Positions 2,315 to 49,451 of a DNA stretch of 64,000 bases are shown piece by piece (the stretch's first letter is position 1; every line of letters starts with the position of its first letter). The translations under genes were made by a program, and so were the position numbers. The notes under the pieces are model-generated. The model had not been told where the DNA came from, did not search any database, and was given only the letters and a program-made list of their open reading frames with translations. The stretch covers positions 266,501 to 330,500 of the forward strand of contig NC_012115.1 of the NCBI RefSeq assembly GCF_000021725.1, written 5' to 3'. This DNA comes from Nautilia profundicola AmH. GTDB taxonomy: Bacteria; Campylobacterota; Campylobacteria; Campylobacterales; Nautiliaceae.

Positions 2315-3115
2315 ATGGAGAATTTCAATAATATGAAAGTAATGGATATAAAAAATTTCAGCTTTACATACGCCGGGGCGTCTAAACCTTCGCTTAAAAA
2401 CATTAATCTACCTATTTACGAAGGAAAGGTTACTGCGCTAATCGGTCCCAGCGGATGCGGTAAATCGACACTTCTTAGAAGCCTTAACAGAATACACGAC
2501 CTGTATCCGGGCAATAAATACGAAGGCGAGATTCTTCTTAAAAACTTCCAAACGTCAGAGATGGAAAACATACTTGAATTTAAAAAAGAAAACGAGCTTA
2601 TAAATCTTCGCCAAAGAGTGGGTATGATTTTCCAAAAACCCACACCGTTTCCGATGAGTATATACGACAACATAGCTTACGGACTCAGACTCAAAGGCAT
2701 TAAAAGCAAAAGCGAACTTGACGCAAGAGTGGAAGACGCCCTAAAAGGCGGGGCACTTTGGAATGAAGTAAAAGACAGGTTAAACGACGACGCAAGGGGG
2801 CTTAGCGGTGGGCAGCAGCAAAGACTCTGCATTGCAAGGGCTATTGCGGTTGAACCTGAAGTGCTTTTAATGGATGAGCCGACAAGTGCACTTGATCCTA
2901 TTTCAACGCTTGCCATTGAAGAGCTTGTTACACAGCTAAAAGATAAAGTTACAATAGCAATCGTAACCCACAACATGCAGCAGGCAAGCCGTATAAGTGA
3001 TTACACCGCTTATATGTACTTAGGAGAGCTGATAGAATTCGGAGAAACGACTCAGATCTTCCTTAATCCAAAAGAAAAACACACTGCTGATTATATTGCC
3101 GGAAAATTCGGCTAA
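2315..3115 (+). CDS. pstB: Phosphate ABC transporter ATPase PstB
   Basis: Cytoplasmic ATPase that powers the PstCA channel. With the start at 2315 the protein is 266 residues: Walker [10 protein letters not shown] at 44-52, Q-loop [16 protein letters not shown] signature LSGGQQQR, Walker [14 protein letters not shown] and the H-loop IVTHNMQQA. The TPFPMS stretch after the Q-loop is characteristic of PstB. I chose 2315 because the frame could be extended upstream only by overlapping the end of pstA, whereas 2315 has GGAG 8 bases before it. No phoU follows, although it often sits here; a Pit permease gene comes next. Confidence 0.94.
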
Positions 3116-3164
3116 AAAAATAAAGATAATATTAATCTTCATTTACATCTCTCTTTTCTTTTTG

Positions 3165-3170
3165 TAAAAT
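3165..3170 (+). promoter_or_regulatory. -10 box upstream of the Pit gene
   Basis: TAAAAT preceded by TG (TGTAAAAT) lies 23 bases before the Pit start after a T-rich run, matching the extended -10 style of this lineage. It suggests the Pit gene can be transcribed apart from pst. Confidence 0.45.
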
Positions 3171-3193
3171 TCCTTTAAAAAAAAGAGGTTAAC

Positions 3194-4813
3194 ATGGAAC
3201 TCCAAACCGTCTCTAAAATAGAAAAAAAAGCAAGAAAATCCGCAGGTATTGATTTGATGCGTTTAGGTATCGCTTTAATCTTTATTGCGGTTGTTGTAAT
3301 TTACACTTACGCAAAAACGGGAAGCGTACCTAACAGTCTTTTTTTAGTGATAGCTACGGTTTTCGGTGCTTATATGGCGATGAATATCGGTGCGAACGAC
3401 GTTGCGAATAACGTAGGTCCCGCAGTCGGAAGTAGGGCACTAAGCCTTACGGGCGCTATTATAATCGCCGCTGTGTTTGAAGCGGCAGGTGCTCTTATCG
3501 CCGGTGCGGATGTAACCAATACGATTAGGAAAGGTATTATTGATATAGCAGCATTTAACGGTGATGTTAATATTTTCATCTGGGCGATGATGTCGGCGCT
3601 TCTTGCCGCAGCTCTTTGGCTGAACCTTGCTACTGCTTTCAAAGCTCCTGTTTCTACTACACACTCAATCGTAGGTGGTGTAATGGGTGCGGGTATTGCC
3701 GCTGCCGGCTTTAGTATAGTGCACTGGGCTACAATGGGTAAAATTGCCGCTTCTTGGGTGATTTCACCGGTACTTGGCGGTATAATAGCAGCAGGATTTT
3801 TATATGCGATTAAAAAAACGGTCGTATTTAAAGAAGATATGGCAGCAGCCGCAAGAAAATGGGTTCCTATTTACGTTTCAATTATGACATGGGCGTTTGT
3901 TACGTATCTGACTATGAAAGGTTTAAAACACGTTTGGGTAAATATTACGGATGTTTTAAGCTTTTTACCTCATACTAAAAAACCAACATTCGGTGTAGCT
4001 GCAATATTCGGCCTTATTTTAGGGGTGGCAGTTTATTTTATAATGGTTGCAAAACTTAAAAAAGAACAGATAATTAATACAAGAGAAGGGATCAACAGAT
4101 ATTTCACAGTACCTCTTATTTTTTCAGCTGCACTTCTTAGTTTCGCTCACGGTGCAAACGACGTTGCGAATGCGGTTGGTCCGCTTGCGGCAATTTCGGA
4201 TGCAGTTTTAAGCGGAGGTATTGCGAGTAAGTCGGCTATTCCTTTTTGGGTAATGGCTATCGGTGCGCTCGGTATTTCGATAGGCCTTGCTCTATATGGA
4301 CCGAGACTGATTAAAACAGTGGGTGATGAAATTACAAAAATAGACCCGATCAGAGGATTCTGTGTGGCACTTGCTGCAGCTATTACGGTTATTATCGCTT
4401 CACAGCTCGGGCTTCCTGTAAGTTCTACGCATATTGCGGTAGGTGCGATTTTTGGTGTAGGATTTTTAAGAGAGTGGCTGCATCTTGTAGAACAAAAAGA
4501 AGATGAAATCGAAAAAGAAATAGAAGAAGCGGAAAAAAGACTAAAAGCATACGAACTTGAACTTGAAGACCTGCAGCAAAAAACTGATAAAAGTAAAGAA
4601 GATTACAAAAGAATAGTAGAGCTTATTGAAGTTACGGAAGAACTTGAAAAAACTATAAAAAGATTCAAAAAAATCCTTAAAAAAGAAGAAAAGGTAAAAT
4701 ACGTAAAAAGAGATCTTTTCAAAAAAATTATTGCAGCGTGGATTATTACCGTACCGGTTGCAGCAGTTCTTGCGGCAATGATATTCTTTATGATTAAAGG
4801 TATGATGCTGTAA
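3194..4813 (+). CDS. pit: Inorganic phosphate transporter, PiT family, with cytoplasmic coiled coil
   Basis: Ion-coupled phosphate permease of 539 residues. It carries the two signature motifs of the family, GANDVANNVGPAVGSRA near residue 64 and GANDVANAVGPLAA near residue 318, as expected for the inverted-repeat fold of about ten membrane segments. Residues about 430-512 are a long charged helix rich in E and K, predicted to be a coiled coil, placed before one last membrane segment (AAWIITVPVAAVLAAMIFFMI). That insert is larger than in minimal Pit proteins. It lies directly after pstB, so high-affinity and low-affinity phosphate uptake are neighbours. The start at 3194 has AAAGAGG upstream. 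Ion specificity cannot be told from sequence; sulfate permeases share the fold. Confidence 0.9.
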   Translation: MELQTVSKIEKKARKSAGIDLMRLGIALIFIAVVVIYTYAKTGSVPNSLFLVIATVFGAYMAMNIGANDVANNVGPAVGSRALSLTGAIIIAAVFEAAGALIAGADVTNTIRKGIIDIAAFNGDVNIFIWAMMSALLAAALWLNLATAFKAPVSTTHSIVGGVMGAGIAAAGFSIVHWATMGKIAASWVISPVLGGIIAAGFLYAIKKTVVFKEDMAAAARKWVPIYVSIMTWAFVTYLTMKGLKHVWVNITDVLSFLPHTKKPTFGVAAIFGLILGVAVYFIMVAKLKKEQIINTREGINRYFTVPLIFSAALLSFAHGANDVANAVGPLAAISDAVLSGGIASKSAIPFWVMAIGALGISIGLALYGPRLIKTVGDEITKIDPIRGFCVALAAAITVIIASQLGLPVSSTHIAVGAIFGVGFLREWLHLVEQKEDEIEKEIEEAEKRLKAYELELEDLQQKTDKSKEDYKRIVELIEVTEELEKTIKRFKKILKKEEKVKYVKRDLFKKIIAAWIITVPVAAVLAAMIFFMIKGMML

Positions 4814-42530: not shown

Positions 42531-42689
42531 ATGTGTATGCAGACGCTTTACGGATGCTGTCTTATGGACGGGGAAGTGGTAAAAAGTAAAAGTGAAAAGT
42601 TAAAAATAAAAAATGAAAAAATGAAAACGGATAAAAAAAATAAAAAGTCTAAAAAAGTAATTCATCAAAGTGAGGTCGGGTTTGAATAA
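42531..42689 (+). CDS. Small 52-residue protein of unknown function
   Basis: A short frame that begins with ATG one base after the addA stop region, preceded by GGGAGG (7 bases) in the end of addA. The product has a Cys-rich N-terminus (MCMQTLYGCCLMDGEVV) and a Lys-rich tail that is mostly encoded by AAAAGTG/AAAAGTT/AAAAATG heptamers (42582-42630), ending VIHQSEVGFE. It overlaps the first codons of lpxB in another frame. The strong ribosome site and tight packing make translation likely, but I recognise no family; CxxxxxxCC could bind a metal. Confidence 0.5.
   Translation: MCMQTLYGCCLMDGEVVKSKSEKLKIKNEKMKTDKKNKKSKKVIHQSEVGFE
42582..42630 (+). repeat. AAAAGTG-type heptamer array in the 52-residue ORF
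   Basis: AAAAGT(A), AAAAGTG, AAAAGTT, AAAAATA, AAAAATG in strict 7-base phase, then an 8-base AAAAAATG and AAAACGG. It is read in frame as a lysine-rich stretch. Confidence 0.75.
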
Positions 42690-43716
42690 GATACTTGTAA
42701 GCGCACTGGAGCCGAGTGCAAACCTGCATTTAAAACAGGTTTTAAATGAGTGTAAAGTGAAAAATGAAAAGTGTAATATTGTTGGTGTATTTGATAAAAG
42801 CCTGGGTGAACCCGTAATTGACGGCAATGAATTTAACGTAATGGGATTTTTGGATGTTTTGCCGAAAATAAAGCTTGCCAAAAAGGCCATTAACGAACTT
42901 GCCGAGCTTAGCAAAAAGTGCGATAAGGTGCTTTTAATAGACGCGCCGTCTTTTAATCTGAGGCTTGCTAAAAAAATAAAAGAGGTTAACCCGGGTGTTG
43001 AAATAATTTATTATATACTGCCGAAAGTATGGGCTTGGAAAAAGGGAAGAATAAAAGACGTAAACAGATATGTGGATAAAAAGGCATATATTTTTCCTTT
43101 TGAGCGTGAGATATGGACTGACGGAATATATGTCGGAAATCCTCTTTTGGATGAGATAAAAACTTTCAGGGATGATAAGCTTTATGGGAATATTGCGTTT
43201 TTACCCGGAAGCCGTAAGAGTGAGATTAAAAATTTGATGCCTGTATTTAGAGAGCTTATAAAACACTTACCCGGAAATAAAATATTGGCGGTACCTGAAA
43301 TATATAAAGATAAACTCTCTGAAATTTACGGGGATTTAAGCGGGTTTGAGATTGTATATGATGCTCACGAAGCGCTTTTAAAAAGTGATTTCGCATATAT
43401 CTGTAGCGGTACGGCCACACTTGAAGCGGCGATTATAGGTACTCCGTTTGTCTTAATGTATAAAGCAAGGGAAATTGAATATATAATAGCTAAAATGTTT
43501 GTAAAACTTAATTATGTAGGGCTTGCCAATATAATTTTTGAACGTGAGGGACTTGGTGAATTTCATAAAGAATATCTGCAGGATTTTGATATTGAAAAGC
43601 TTATAAATGATTTTAAAAACAGTAGTCTAAAAGAATTTCAAAAAAAATCCGATAAATTAAAAGAGATTTTAAAACACGGAAGTGCGAAAAACGTTTTTAA
43701 ACTATTAAAATTATAA
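42682..43716 (+). CDS. lpxB: Lipid-A-disaccharide synthase
   Basis: Joins UDP-diacylglucosamine and lipid X to the lipid A disaccharide. I take a TTG start at 42682, since GAGG lies 6 bases upstream and the family N-terminus KILVSALEPSANLHL follows; a GTG at 42670 is possible. The 344-residue protein has the GT-B features DAPSFNLRLAKKIK, YYILPKVWAWKKGR, FLPGSRKSEI and CSGTATLEAAIIGTPFVLMYK. Residues CKVKNEKC early in the protein come from an AAGTGAAAAATGAAAAG heptamer stretch at 42748-42774. In Campylobacter lpxB is next to greA; here a chemoreceptor gene sits between. Confidence 0.92.
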   Translation: MNKILVSALEPSANLHLKQVLNECKVKNEKCNIVGVFDKSLGEPVIDGNEFNVMGFLDVLPKIKLAKKAINELAELSKKCDKVLLIDAPSFNLRLAKKIKEVNPGVEIIYYILPKVWAWKKGRIKDVNRYVDKKAYIFPFEREIWTDGIYVGNPLLDEIKTFRDDKLYGNIAFLPGSRKSEIKNLMPVFRELIKHLPGNKILAVPEIYKDKLSEIYGDLSGFEIVYDAHEALLKSDFAYICSGTATLEAAIIGTPFVLMYKAREIEYIIAKMFVKLNYVGLANIIFEREGLGEFHKEYLQDFDIEKLINDFKNSSLKEFQKKSDKLKEILKHGSAKNVFKLLKL

Positions 43717-43746
43717 TTTAATATTAATTTGTTTTTAACTTTTGGT

Positions 43747-43752
43747 TATAAT
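43747..43752 (+). promoter_or_regulatory. -10 box of the chemoreceptor gene
   Basis: TATAAT in GGTTATAATTATT, 27 bases before the start codon, with a T-rich -35 region and AAAGGGG as ribosome site. Confidence 0.5.
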
Positions 43753-43778
43753 TATTTAAAATAATAAAAGGGGAAGAG

Positions 43779-45734
43779 ATGAGTATCAAAAAACGAAGTA
43801 TTATTTCGATAATTATCCTGATTTTGAGTATCGGGGGGTTGATTTTTATTAATTTTTACTCACAATCGGCGATTGAAGAGATTAGTTCGAAAGTAACAGA
43901 TATTGAAAATAAAATAATCACTACCGAAAAGGTTAGGACAGCACATATTAGGTTTGTAGCAAATTTTGAAAAAGCATATCTGCAAAACAAGCCGGCAAAA
44001 CTAACAACCGATTTTAATAATTGTGCTTTTGGAAAATTTATTAAAAAATATAAGCATGAGTTACCTCCTAAACTTCAACGAGACTTGGAAGAAGTTCTTA
44101 AATATCATGAGCATTTGCATAATCTTGTAAAAATTTACAACACCAAATACATAAGAATAGATAGAGACATACATGAAAGAACTTATGAAGCTTTTATGCA
44201 TAAATATCTTGGACTTTTAGATGTTGCCAATGTGGCAATGGGTTTTAGTAATAAAAATATAGCGACTTCTCCGAAAAAATGTATGGTCGGTAAATATTTA
44301 AATAGTTATTCAAAAGAATATTTTGATAAATTAAATCTTCCGGAAGCCGGTAAATTATTTGAATCAATGAAAGCGCCTCATGATAAACTTCATAAATTAG
44401 CGGCTGAACTGATGAAACTGCCTGTTTCTCAAAGAGAAGAATTTTATGAAAAGAATATCGTACCTGTTTATAAAAAACTTCAAAAACTTTCAGAAAAATA
44501 TTTAAATATATTAACCGATGTAGATGACAGAATAAATGCAAAAATCAGCAAAGCAATTATTAATGATACTTTTAGAGATTTACAGTACATTGAAAAATAT
44601 CTTGATGATATTATCAAATATTACACCACCCTGAAAAAACAACTGATTCATAAAAGACATCAAATAGAAAGAAATGTTTATATTTTAGAAATAATAATGG
44701 TTATTCTTGCGATAATCGGTATGGTTTTCGTAATTTGGAATTTTATGACAATAATAAAAAGAATAGAATTTTTAAAAAATAACATTTTAAGTGTAGGACT
44801 TGATCTAAGCTATAAAATAAAAACAGATGTGAAAGATGAAATAAGCGAAATTGCTGATGCAGTTAACACTCTTCTTGAAAAAATAAGAGAAACGGTCGTT
44901 AATTCTAAGATTATCAGTAATAAAAACGCTCAGACATCGCAGCAGTTAGCGAAAACAGCTCATGATGTAGGTAAAAAAGTAGAAACTGAAAGCGAGCTAA
45001 TTCAAAATGTCGGCAATGAAGTAGAAAACGTGGCTAATACAATGAATAGCTCTAAAGATTCAGCAATTGAAACGCTAAATGAAATAAAAGAAACACAAAA
45101 CGAGCTTGAAGAAGCTAATAAAGAGATAGATTTCTTAACACAAAAAATAATAAGCGTATCCGACAAAGAAGCGGAACTTGCGGAAAAAATAAAACACCTT
45201 AATGAAAATACGCAAGAAGTCAAAAACGTTCTTAACGTTATTAGGGATATAGCTGATCAGACTAATCTTCTTGCTCTTAATGCTGCAATTGAAGCGGCAA
45301 GAGCCGGGGAACACGGAAGAGGTTTTGCGGTGGTTGCGGATGAGGTTAGAAAACTTGCCGAAAAAACACAAAAAAGCCTTGCTGAAATCGACGCTACCAT
45401 CAATGTAATCGTAATGGCGGTGATGGAAGCGAGCACAAATATGGACGAAAGCGCCAAAAACGTTCTTGAACTTGTTGAAGACGCTTCAAAAGCAAAAGAA
45501 GAGATTGATAAAAGTATGGGTAAAATGCTTTCATCAACCAAAAAAGTCGAAGATTTGGTAAATAATTTTGAAGTTTCGGCTAAATCAATTGAAGAAGTTT
45601 CGAAAAACCTTGAAGAAGTTAAAAATATTTCTAAAAACAATGCAGAAAATGTTGAAAAAATTATAAAAGCAATTGATTCATTAAATCAAATGATTAAAGA
45701 GTTAGACTCACTTTTACAACATTACAAAACATAA
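43779..45734 (+). CDS. Methyl-accepting chemotaxis protein with two periplasmic CZB-like domains
   Basis: Chemoreceptor of 651 residues. A membrane helix at about 8-28, a periplasmic region to about 300, a second helix at 302-322, a HAMP-like region, then the signalling domain with [20 protein letters not shown] and [15 protein letters not shown]. The periplasmic part holds two successive CZB-like units: His56, Cys82 (NCAFGKFI), His110 and His114; then His141, Cys168 (KKCMVGKYL), His201 and His205 (APHDKLH). Three His and one Cys per unit match the zinc site of CZB domains, which elsewhere sense hypochlorous acid, zinc or related cues. The gene is inserted between lpxB and greA and has its own promoter. 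Confidence 0.85.
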
Positions 45735-45805: not shown

Positions 45806-46294
45806 ATGCATAAGGAACCAATGACTAAATACGGATATGAAAAACTATCTAAAGAGCTTGAGTATTTAAAAACAACAGCAAGACCCGAAGTGGCAAAAGA
45901 GATTGACAGCGCGAGAGAACTCGGAGATTTAAAAGAAAACGCTGAATATCACGCCGCTAAAGAAAAACAGTCTCATATAGAAAGAAGAATAGCGGAGCTT
46001 AGCGATATCTTAAGTAGAGCCGTAGTGGTGGATCCGAAAGAACATGCACATAACCGTGTAGCATTCGGTAGTACCGTTTATTTAATCGACGTAGATACGG
46101 ACGAAAAAGAAAAATACACAATCGTAGGAGCTCCCGAGGCAAATCCTGATAAGGGACTAATTTCATATCATTCACCTCTTGCAAAAGCACTTATCGGTAA
46201 AGAAGTAGGAGATGAGGTGGAAGTAAATCTTCCGGGTGGTGTGAAAGTATATGAAATAGATAAAATCTGTTATGAAGACATCTGTTTTTCATAG
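45806..46294 (+). CDS. greA: Transcription elongation factor GreA
   Basis: Restarts stalled RNA polymerase by stimulating transcript cleavage. The 162 residues form the N-terminal coiled coil with PMTKYGYEKLSKELEYLKTTARPEVAKEI, the acidic tip pair in ARELGDLKENAEYHAAKEKQ (conserved DLxENAEYHAAKE), and the C-terminal FKBP-like domain with YHSPLAKALIGKEVGDEV. Typical length. The start has AAAGGA 6 bases away. dut follows after a 41-bp degenerate heptamer spacer. Confidence 0.96.
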   Translation: MHKEPMTKYGYEKLSKELEYLKTTARPEVAKEIDSARELGDLKENAEYHAAKEKQSHIERRIAELSDILSRAVVVDPKEHAHNRVAFGSTVYLIDVDTDEKEKYTIVGAPEANPDKGLISYHSPLAKALIGKEVGDEVEVNLPGGVKVYEIDKICYEDICFS

Positions 46295-47825: not shown

Positions 47826-48511
47826 TTGAATTAAAAAATGGAGCAGTAATTATAGCGGATGTTCATTATAGAAAAGGAGACACGGAATTTTTAATTCTTT
47901 TGAAAAAATGGATAAAAAATCCTCCTCCTCAGGTGTTTTTGCTTGGTGATATATTTCATCTTCTTTTACCTTTTAAATATCTTGTAAAATATAATAAAGA
48001 AGCTGTCGAACTTATAAATATTTTGGCTACAAAGACGGAAGTTTATTATACTCCCGGTAATCATGATTTCAATATTAAAAAAGTATTTCCCGAAGTAACG
48101 GTTTTTGATGCTTTTTATGATGAAAAGAAAAATGTTTTTTTAACACATGGAGATTTAACGGACAGTGATTTGTCTTATAAGATTTATGTTAGTGTGATAA
48201 GAAATAGAACTTTTAATGTTTTTTTAAATTTTTTCAGTTTAAACTTTTTAAATAATTGGCTTTTTAAAAAAATTCTCCAAAAAAAAATCGATTGTACAAA
48301 AATAAAAAATTTTGAAAAAAAAATTAAAGAAAAAACAAAAAAACTCGATTATGATATAATTATTGAAGGTCATTATCATCAAAATGAAATATTACATTTT
48401 CATGACAAAACATATATATCTTTACCGGCATTTGTTTGCACTAAAAGCTATATTTTAATACAATTAGATAATAATCCGATTATAAAGGAAATTGATTATG
48501 ATGGACGATAA
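47795..48511 (+). CDS. LpxH-like UDP-2,3-diacylglucosamine pyrophosphatase
   Basis: Calcineurin-like phosphoesterase of 238 residues with the metal motifs IADVHYRKGDTEF, LGDIFHLLL (GDxF), TPGNHDFNIKK (GNHD), LTHGDL and EGHYHQNEI (GHxH). These fit the Campylobacterota enzyme that removes UMP from UDP-diacylglucosamine in lipid A synthesis, and lpxB is 5 kb upstream. The first ten residues, MKSEKLKVKN, are encoded by heptamer repeats and the start is a GTG within them; the only other in-frame candidates are ATT codons, so the true start is uncertain. It overlaps cheV by 14 bases. Confidence 0.75.
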   Translation: MKSEKLKVKNIELKNGAVIIADVHYRKGDTEFLILLKKWIKNPPPQVFLLGDIFHLLLPFKYLVKYNKEAVELINILATKTEVYYTPGNHDFNIKKVFPEVTVFDAFYDEKKNVFLTHGDLTDSDLSYKIYVSVIRNRTFNVFLNFFSLNFLNNWLFKKILQKKIDCTKIKNFEKKIKEKTKKLDYDIIIEGHYHQNEILHFHDKTYISLPAFVCTKSYILIQLDNNPIIKEIDYDGR

Positions 48512-49451
48512 AACACTGAAAGTTGGATCAAACGAATTAGAACTTGTTGATTTCAGATTATATAAAAAAGAGCCGAACGGCGGTATTTATGAAGGTGTTT
48601 ACGGTATAAACGTTGCAAAAGTTAGAGAGATTATAAAAATGCCGGAACTTACCGAACTGCCAGGGAGTGAAGATTATATTGAAGGTATATTTGATTTAAG
48701 GGGAGTGGTTGTCCCGGTTGTGGATTTGGCTAAATGGATGGGTATAGAAGTACCTGATGAGAGTGAGGCACCTATTAAAAAAAGAGTAATTATTACGGAG
48801 TTTAACAATATACTTATCGGTTTTATCGTTCACGATGCAAAAAGAATAAGACGTATAAGCTGGGCGGATATCGAACCGGCACAATTCGGTGTGGGTCAGG
48901 GTAAACTTGACAGAAGCAAAATTACGGGTATAACAAGAATAGAAAACGGAGAAATTTTATTAATACTTGATTTGGAAAGTATTGTAGAGGAGATGGGACT
49001 GTTTGAAGCGAATCTTGAAGCGGATTTAGACGCGATTGAAAAATTCAGCGGTATGGTTTTGCTTGTAGATGATTCTGCGACTGCGCGAAGAATTGAAAGA
49101 GAAGCTCTTGAAAAAATGGGGTTTGAAGTAATTGAAGCTACAAACGGAGAAGAAGGACTTCAAAAATTAGAAGAATTATACGCTCTTTACGGGGACAATT
49201 TAAAAGAAAAACTGAAACTTATATTAAGTGATATAGAAATGCCTAAAATGGACGGTTATCATATGGCTGCAAAGATACATGCCGATAAAAGATTTAAAGA
49301 CATCCCTCTTGTATTCAGTTCTTCAATTTCAGATGCATTTAGCGATATAAGAGGAAAAGCGGTTGGTGCGGAAGGATATCTTGTAAAATTTGATTCAAAT
49401 AAATTTTATCAACAGATTGCAGATATTCTTAATAATAAAGACAATAAATAA
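48498..49451 (+). CDS. cheV: Chemotaxis coupling protein CheV
   Basis: Adapter of 317 residues that joins receptors to CheA and tunes the signal. A CheW-like domain at about 15-165 (GVYGINVAKVREIIKMPELTELP; FDLRGVVVPVVDLAKWMG) is followed by a receiver domain from about 185 with VLLVDDSATARRIERE, the phosphoacceptor Asp in LILSDIEMPKMDGY, and Lys in YLVKFDS. The start at 48498 (or 48501) has AAGGA upstream; a longer TTG frame is less likely. It overlaps the LpxH-like gene and leads the cheV-cheA-cheW operon known from Campylobacter. Confidence 0.93.
   Translation: MMDDKTLKVGSNELELVDFRLYKKEPNGGIYEGVYGINVAKVREIIKMPELTELPGSEDYIEGIFDLRGVVVPVVDLAKWMGIEVPDESEAPIKKRVIITEFNNILIGFIVHDAKRIRRISWADIEPAQFGVGQGKLDRSKITGITRIENGEILLILDLESIVEEMGLFEANLEADLDAIEKFSGMVLLVDDSATARRIEREALEKMGFEVIEATNGEEGLQKLEELYALYGDNLKEKLKLILSDIEMPKMDGYHMAAKIHADKRFKDIPLVFSSSISDAFSDIRGKAVGAEGYLVKFDSNKFYQQIADILNNKDNK

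Follow-up and report, generated by a model that had tools for sequence, protein, structure and literature searches.

A chemoreceptor of Nautilia profundicola with two CZB domains in tandem, predicted to lie in the periplasm

The CZB domains of DgcZ and TlpD signal by zinc occupancy (PMC8262984, PMC12871147). Periplasmic representatives are already on record, since Perkins et al. (2021) identified 384 putative periplasmic CZBs; these make up about 3.9% of CZB sequences, and position 2 of their motif is Ala or poorly conserved (PMC8262984). A preliminary description of the receptor treated here held that a CZB domain outside the cytoplasm is unusual. This is right as far as rarity goes, and not as far as novelty goes, the group having been described by these authors. 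The periplasmic location is thus by itself not new, and the tandem arrangement is the unusual part. Tandem CZB domains were not mentioned in the literature searched; the wording 'two CZB' in PMC12871147 was rejected as a case because it denotes both chains of one homodimer.

The window, that is, the whole stretch of DNA that was analysed, covers 64,000 nucleotides of the genome of N. profundicola, a hydrogen-oxidising and sulfur-reducing vent bacterium (PMC2628731). The features of the receptor gene and its surroundings are as follows (window coordinates; + is the forward strand).

42670..43716, +, lpxB, the left flank
43717..43778, +, intergenic region with a TATAAT-like box (GGTTATAATT) and an AAAGGGG ribosome-binding-like sequence
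43779..45734, +, chemoreceptor (MCP) gene, ATG to stop, 651 aa (ORF translation and Pfam)
43800..43856, +, transmembrane helix 1, residues 8-26 (hydrophobicity)
43944..44132, +, CZB domain 1, residues 56-118 (Pfam; ligands line up with those for zinc in DgcZ, 3T9O)
43944-43946, 44022-44024, 44106-44108 and 44118-44120, +, codons of the CZB 1 ligands H56, C82, H110 and H114
44199..44411, +, CZB domain 2, residues 141-211 (Pfam; ligands conserved in the G545 kinase, see below)
44199-44201, 44280-44282, 44379-44381 and 44391-44393, +, codons of the CZB 2 ligands H141, C168, H201 and H205
44424..44678, +, helical stretch from CZB 2 to the membrane, residues 216-300 (predicted as helix with low confidence overall)
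44682..44738, +, transmembrane helix 2, residues 302-320 (hydrophobicity)
44796..44891, +, HAMP domain, residues 340-371 (Pfam, weak, below the cut-off here)
45180..45629, +, MCP signalling domain with hairpin tip, residues 468-617 (Pfam MCPsignal)
45806..46294, +, greA, the right flank

The open reading frame at 43779-45734 encodes a methyl-accepting chemotaxis protein, with an MCPsignal domain at residues 468-617 (Pfam, E=4.4e-36) and the conserved hairpin tip motif at 496. The HAMP domain falls below the Pfam cut-off in this 651-aa receptor, whereas it is strong in the homologue from genome G408 described below. Hydrophobic helices at about 8-26 and 302-320 flank the CZB pair, and HAMP (340-371) and MCPsignal come after the second of them. 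As these two domains are necessarily cytoplasmic in an MCP, residues 28-300 are predicted to be periplasmic, and established MCP topology accordingly places the CZB pair outside the cytoplasm. The layout is that of the periplasmic CZB chemoreceptors, with CZB between TM1 and TM2 and HAMP/MCP beyond TM2; it is not the TlpD-like plan with a C-terminal cytoplasmic CZB, both CZBs here preceding TM2. The 85-residue helical tail (residues 216-300) matched no Pfam family.

When the whole protein was searched with the CZB profile (PF13682, cut-off 29.4 bits), two stretches were matched with a combined E=4e-13. Scored alone, the first half gave 31.6 bits for CZB 1 (E=2.1e-7), above the cut-off, and the second half gave 26.2 bits for CZB 2 (E=1.1e-5), slightly under it with all four ligands present. 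All eight putative ligands were found (H56, C82, H110 and H114; H141, C168, H201 and H205), C82 and C168 being the only Cys residues of the protein, and the two HCHH spacing patterns did not occur once when residues 28-300 were shuffled 200,000 times. The Cys motif of CZB 1, CAFGKF, has Ala at motif position 2. In a comparison of the sensor-family profile with the PDB, DgcZ (3T9O) topped the list (E=0.045), and the four ligands of CZB 1 aligned residue for residue with its own zinc ligands. Direct BLAST of CZB 1 against CZB 2 gave no significant match. A CZB tree set the cytoplasmic copies apart from most periplasmic ones; given its long branches and few columns, we do not claim a single duplication. 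AlphaFold models made without an alignment for residues 28-300 and 36-160 (pLDDT about 60) were too poor to judge metal geometry, and a PDB fold search with these low-confidence models returned generic four-helix bundles, none significant and DgcZ not among the matches. The preliminary description had given the coordinates and strand of the gene, a tandem of CZB domains between two membrane helices and the positions of two 3-His/1-Cys sites. The translation from ATG to stop and the His and Cys positions agree with it exactly, and the profile search, together with the helix positions and the order of HAMP and MCPsignal, supports the tandem and its placement, copy 2 alone being slightly under the cut-off.

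The family-wise CZB search brought up a protein of genome G545 (L137/L196) with two CZBs in one frame. HisKA and HATPase_c mark this protein as a histidine kinase, and its tandem domain is flanked by membrane helices; it is 25% identical to the receptor over 201 residues (BLASTP, E=5e-10), and it keeps all eight ligands (H59, C85, H118 and H122; H150, C176, H210 and H214, numbered from its Met). The third ligand of site 1, a His, and the first His of site 2 lie 31 residues apart in the receptor and 32 in the kinase. The kinase gene overlaps that of a REC-DUF3369-HD response regulator and stands between hypD and hypE in a cluster encoding HupE/UreJ, HypB, HypD, HypE and HypA. As a single instance, this hydrogenase/nickel cluster serves us as a lead; its context points to a metal or hydrogenase/redox-linked signal rather than to hypochlorous acid. 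A profile of the receptor and the kinase then found, in genome G408 (E=1.4e-43), an MCP that is 35% identical to the receptor over its full length (647 residues), and this full-length relative shows that the receptor family is real. It retains the equivalents of C82, H110, H114, H201 and H205, and its sites have otherwise decayed: H56 is replaced by Q, H141 by E and G85 by Ala, and C168 falls in a deletion. Since the domain has been kept though the equivalents of H56, H141 and C168 are lost, the module can persist without intact sites.

These two were the only full-length tandem-domain relatives among the best-scoring candidates in more than 530 distinct Campylobacterota genomes, over which the tandem profiles were run in partly overlapping sets of 399, 104 and 397, with the best five candidates per genome scored in most, so that weaker members may be missed. 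A single-sequence search of 397 Campylobacterota genomes gave no full-length match to the tandem sensor, and its weak matches were discarded as cytoplasmic CZBs or unrelated helical regions. Coverage beyond Campylobacterota consisted of two pattern scans of genome contigs, the second of which used a pattern alignment built for it and including synthetic rows, and neither scan yielded close sensor-domain relatives; plasmids and phages searched by tblastn yielded no sensor-domain relatives. A cytoplasmic, C-terminal CZB is the usual plan in Campylobacterota: all 21 CZB matches in the 20 long-ORF regions examined are of this kind, and the other two CZB receptors in the N. profundicola genome follow this same plan. 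MCPs with a single periplasmic CZB were found twice (in G549 and G577), and a related receptor in G589 has Ser replacing the CZB Cys. Weak CZB matches in genus g4 (G453, G482 and G468) proved to be cytosolic CZB-EAL-type proteins and not homologues. A family present in Nautiliaceae and G408 (L138, L139, L140 and L197:2533-4527) combines a CZB-like region with an EAL domain, and in G408 a gene of this CZB-EAL family immediately follows that of the tandem-CZB-derived receptor and precedes flhB. Two CheW-like proteins with an inserted CZB, recognised by eye (L160 in G133 and L165 in G342), correspond to the CheW-CZB proteins grouped by Perkins et al.

The gene had also been described as an insertion between lpxB and greA, genes given as adjacent in Campylobacter. 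The order lpxB-MCP-greA is correct, and comparison with Nautiliaceae relatives supports the insertion: in ten of the ten Nautiliaceae loci compared, lpxB and greA are direct neighbours, about 5-220 bases apart, with no MCP between them. Because the MCP is absent from all ten, the insertion appears specific to the N. profundicola genome. The sensor is also missing from the other two Nautilia genomes; one of them is only 57% complete, yet it does contain the lpxB-greA locus, with nothing inserted. The box in 43717..43778 may point to a promoter of the receptor gene's own, although promoter-like sites are no commoner than chance. The window and both MCP-less Nautilia relatives have a similar promoter-like stretch ahead of greA, in the relatives with the box GATATAATTA(C/T)TAAAAAATATAC, so that the gene would have come in with its own leader upstream of the greA promoter, unless it was lost elsewhere. 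The receptor gene has 30.8% GC (28.8% in the sensor part, GC3 20%) and its neighbours 34-40%, an AT-richness that is compatible with a foreign origin and does not prove it. In a search of 150 genomes, the best non-self matches of the signalling domain were a Nautiliaceae receptor and a paralogue from the same genome, both 48% identical; that both have short sensors without CZB suggests sensor swapping. The receptor's nearest chemotaxis neighbour is a CheV-like gene (CheW plus receiver, by eye) at 48492-49451 of the window, four genes past greA's upstream neighbour, and it occupies the same place in all ten Nautiliaceae loci. A further insertion in this row of genes is seen in a Nautilia relative (L128, G485), where the greA-dut gap holds an extra ORF of about 270 aa (~2730-3581) that by eye resembles a PD-(D/E)XK/Rpn-family nuclease. 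One nearly complete Nautiliaceae genome (G223) has lpxB in three pieces with a stop (L084-L086), either a sequencing error or a pseudogene.

We think it rather probable that this transmembrane chemoreceptor signals by putative metal occupancy of its predicted periplasmic sensor, two CZB modules in tandem that are presumably four-helix bundles, with periplasmic metal or redox status as the most likely stimulus. Each site would use three His and one Cys to bind Zn2+ or another divalent metal like it. The helix past H110 and H114 of CZB 1 probably also carries H141 of CZB 2; the spacing of 31 residues in the receptor and 32 in the kinase, the two proteins with full ligand sets, fits one helix serving both modules, and a shared helix would couple the two sites mechanically. 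Metal may be gained or lost at one CZB site or at both as free metal changes, or as oxidants, polysulfide or zinc-stripping sulfide react with or compete for the Cys thiolate, and this would then shift the helices and, through TM2 and HAMP, act on CheA. Vent fluid supplies zinc, nickel, sulfide and polysulfide, all able to alter site occupancy. Zinc, hypochlorous acid and sulfur species had been put forward in the preliminary description as candidate stimuli. Cytoplasmic DgcZ binds zinc very tightly; with binding as tight as this, a simple zinc-level sensor would be saturated, unless the affinity is lower here.

The CZB sites might alternatively be structural zinc staples in a helical bundle that senses an organic ligand, a partner protein or the state of the membrane, as the persistence of the G408 receptor with decayed sites and the helical tail of no known family would allow. 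However, all eight residues are kept in both fully liganded proteins despite 25% identity, and the zinc site is the route of signalling in known CZBs (PMC8262984), so that we regard this explanation as unlikely. It is quite improbable that the tandem reports periplasmic Ni2+, with the MCP steering toward nickel and the kinase tuning hydrogenase maturation: 3His-1Cys CZB sites are known as zinc sites, the N. profundicola receptor gene has no nickel neighbours and the hydrogenase context is a single genomic instance, even though the only other fully liganded member sits between hypD and hypE, near HupE/UreJ and hypA, and N. profundicola lives on H2 (PMC2628731). A sensor of HOCl-type oxidants, used in contact with animal hosts such as Alvinella, would fit the oxidation by HOCl of the zinc-binding Cys of the DgcZ and TlpD CZBs (PMC8262984). 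But Perkins et al. tie the relevance of HOCl mostly to animal colonisers and invoke other zinc-linked signals elsewhere (PMC8262984), there is no evidence of HOCl in the vent habitat and the tandem module is rare, all of which makes this role highly improbable.

With signalling by metal occupancy as the preferred reading, a broader proposal can be put forward, doubtful as it is: the fused periplasmic CZB tandem, with its shared helix and two coupled metal sites, would be a distinct and rare sensor class, exchanged between chemoreceptors and histidine kinases, through which hydrogen-dependent Campylobacterota read periplasmic nickel or zinc together with redox status. If true, this class would link metal taxis with hydrogenase control. 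What CZB domains do inside the cell is under debate, with direct sensing of zinc on one side and sensing of oxidants on the other; the external two-site receptor, its G545 kinase twin and the site-decayed G408 protein may form a comparison set for CZB sensing away from the pools of zinc and thiol in the cytoplasm.

HBM and other double four-helix-bundle sensors of the periplasm likewise stack two helical modules; they have no CZB motif and offer us a lead. Like DgcZ of E. coli (PDB 3T9O), the receptor has an N-terminal CZB, and all four CZB 1 ligands align; DgcZ is a soluble diguanylate cyclase with a single CZB, whereas the receptor is transmembrane and has two. The cytoplasmic receptors TlpD and McpA likewise couple a CZB ligand set to an MCP signalling domain, but their CZB is C-terminal and cytoplasmic, and those of the receptor are predicted to be periplasmic, before TM2. 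The periplasmic subgroup of Perkins et al. (2021) shares the CZB between the two membrane helices of an MCP, the 3His/1Cys set and the Ala seen in CZB 1; tandem copies are unmentioned there, while the receptor has two CZBs in series. Finally, the G545 kinase has the same tandem periplasmic domain, eight ligands and both membrane helices, and differs in its HisKA/HATPase output and its place in a hydrogenase maturation cluster, the output of the receptor being that of an MCP.
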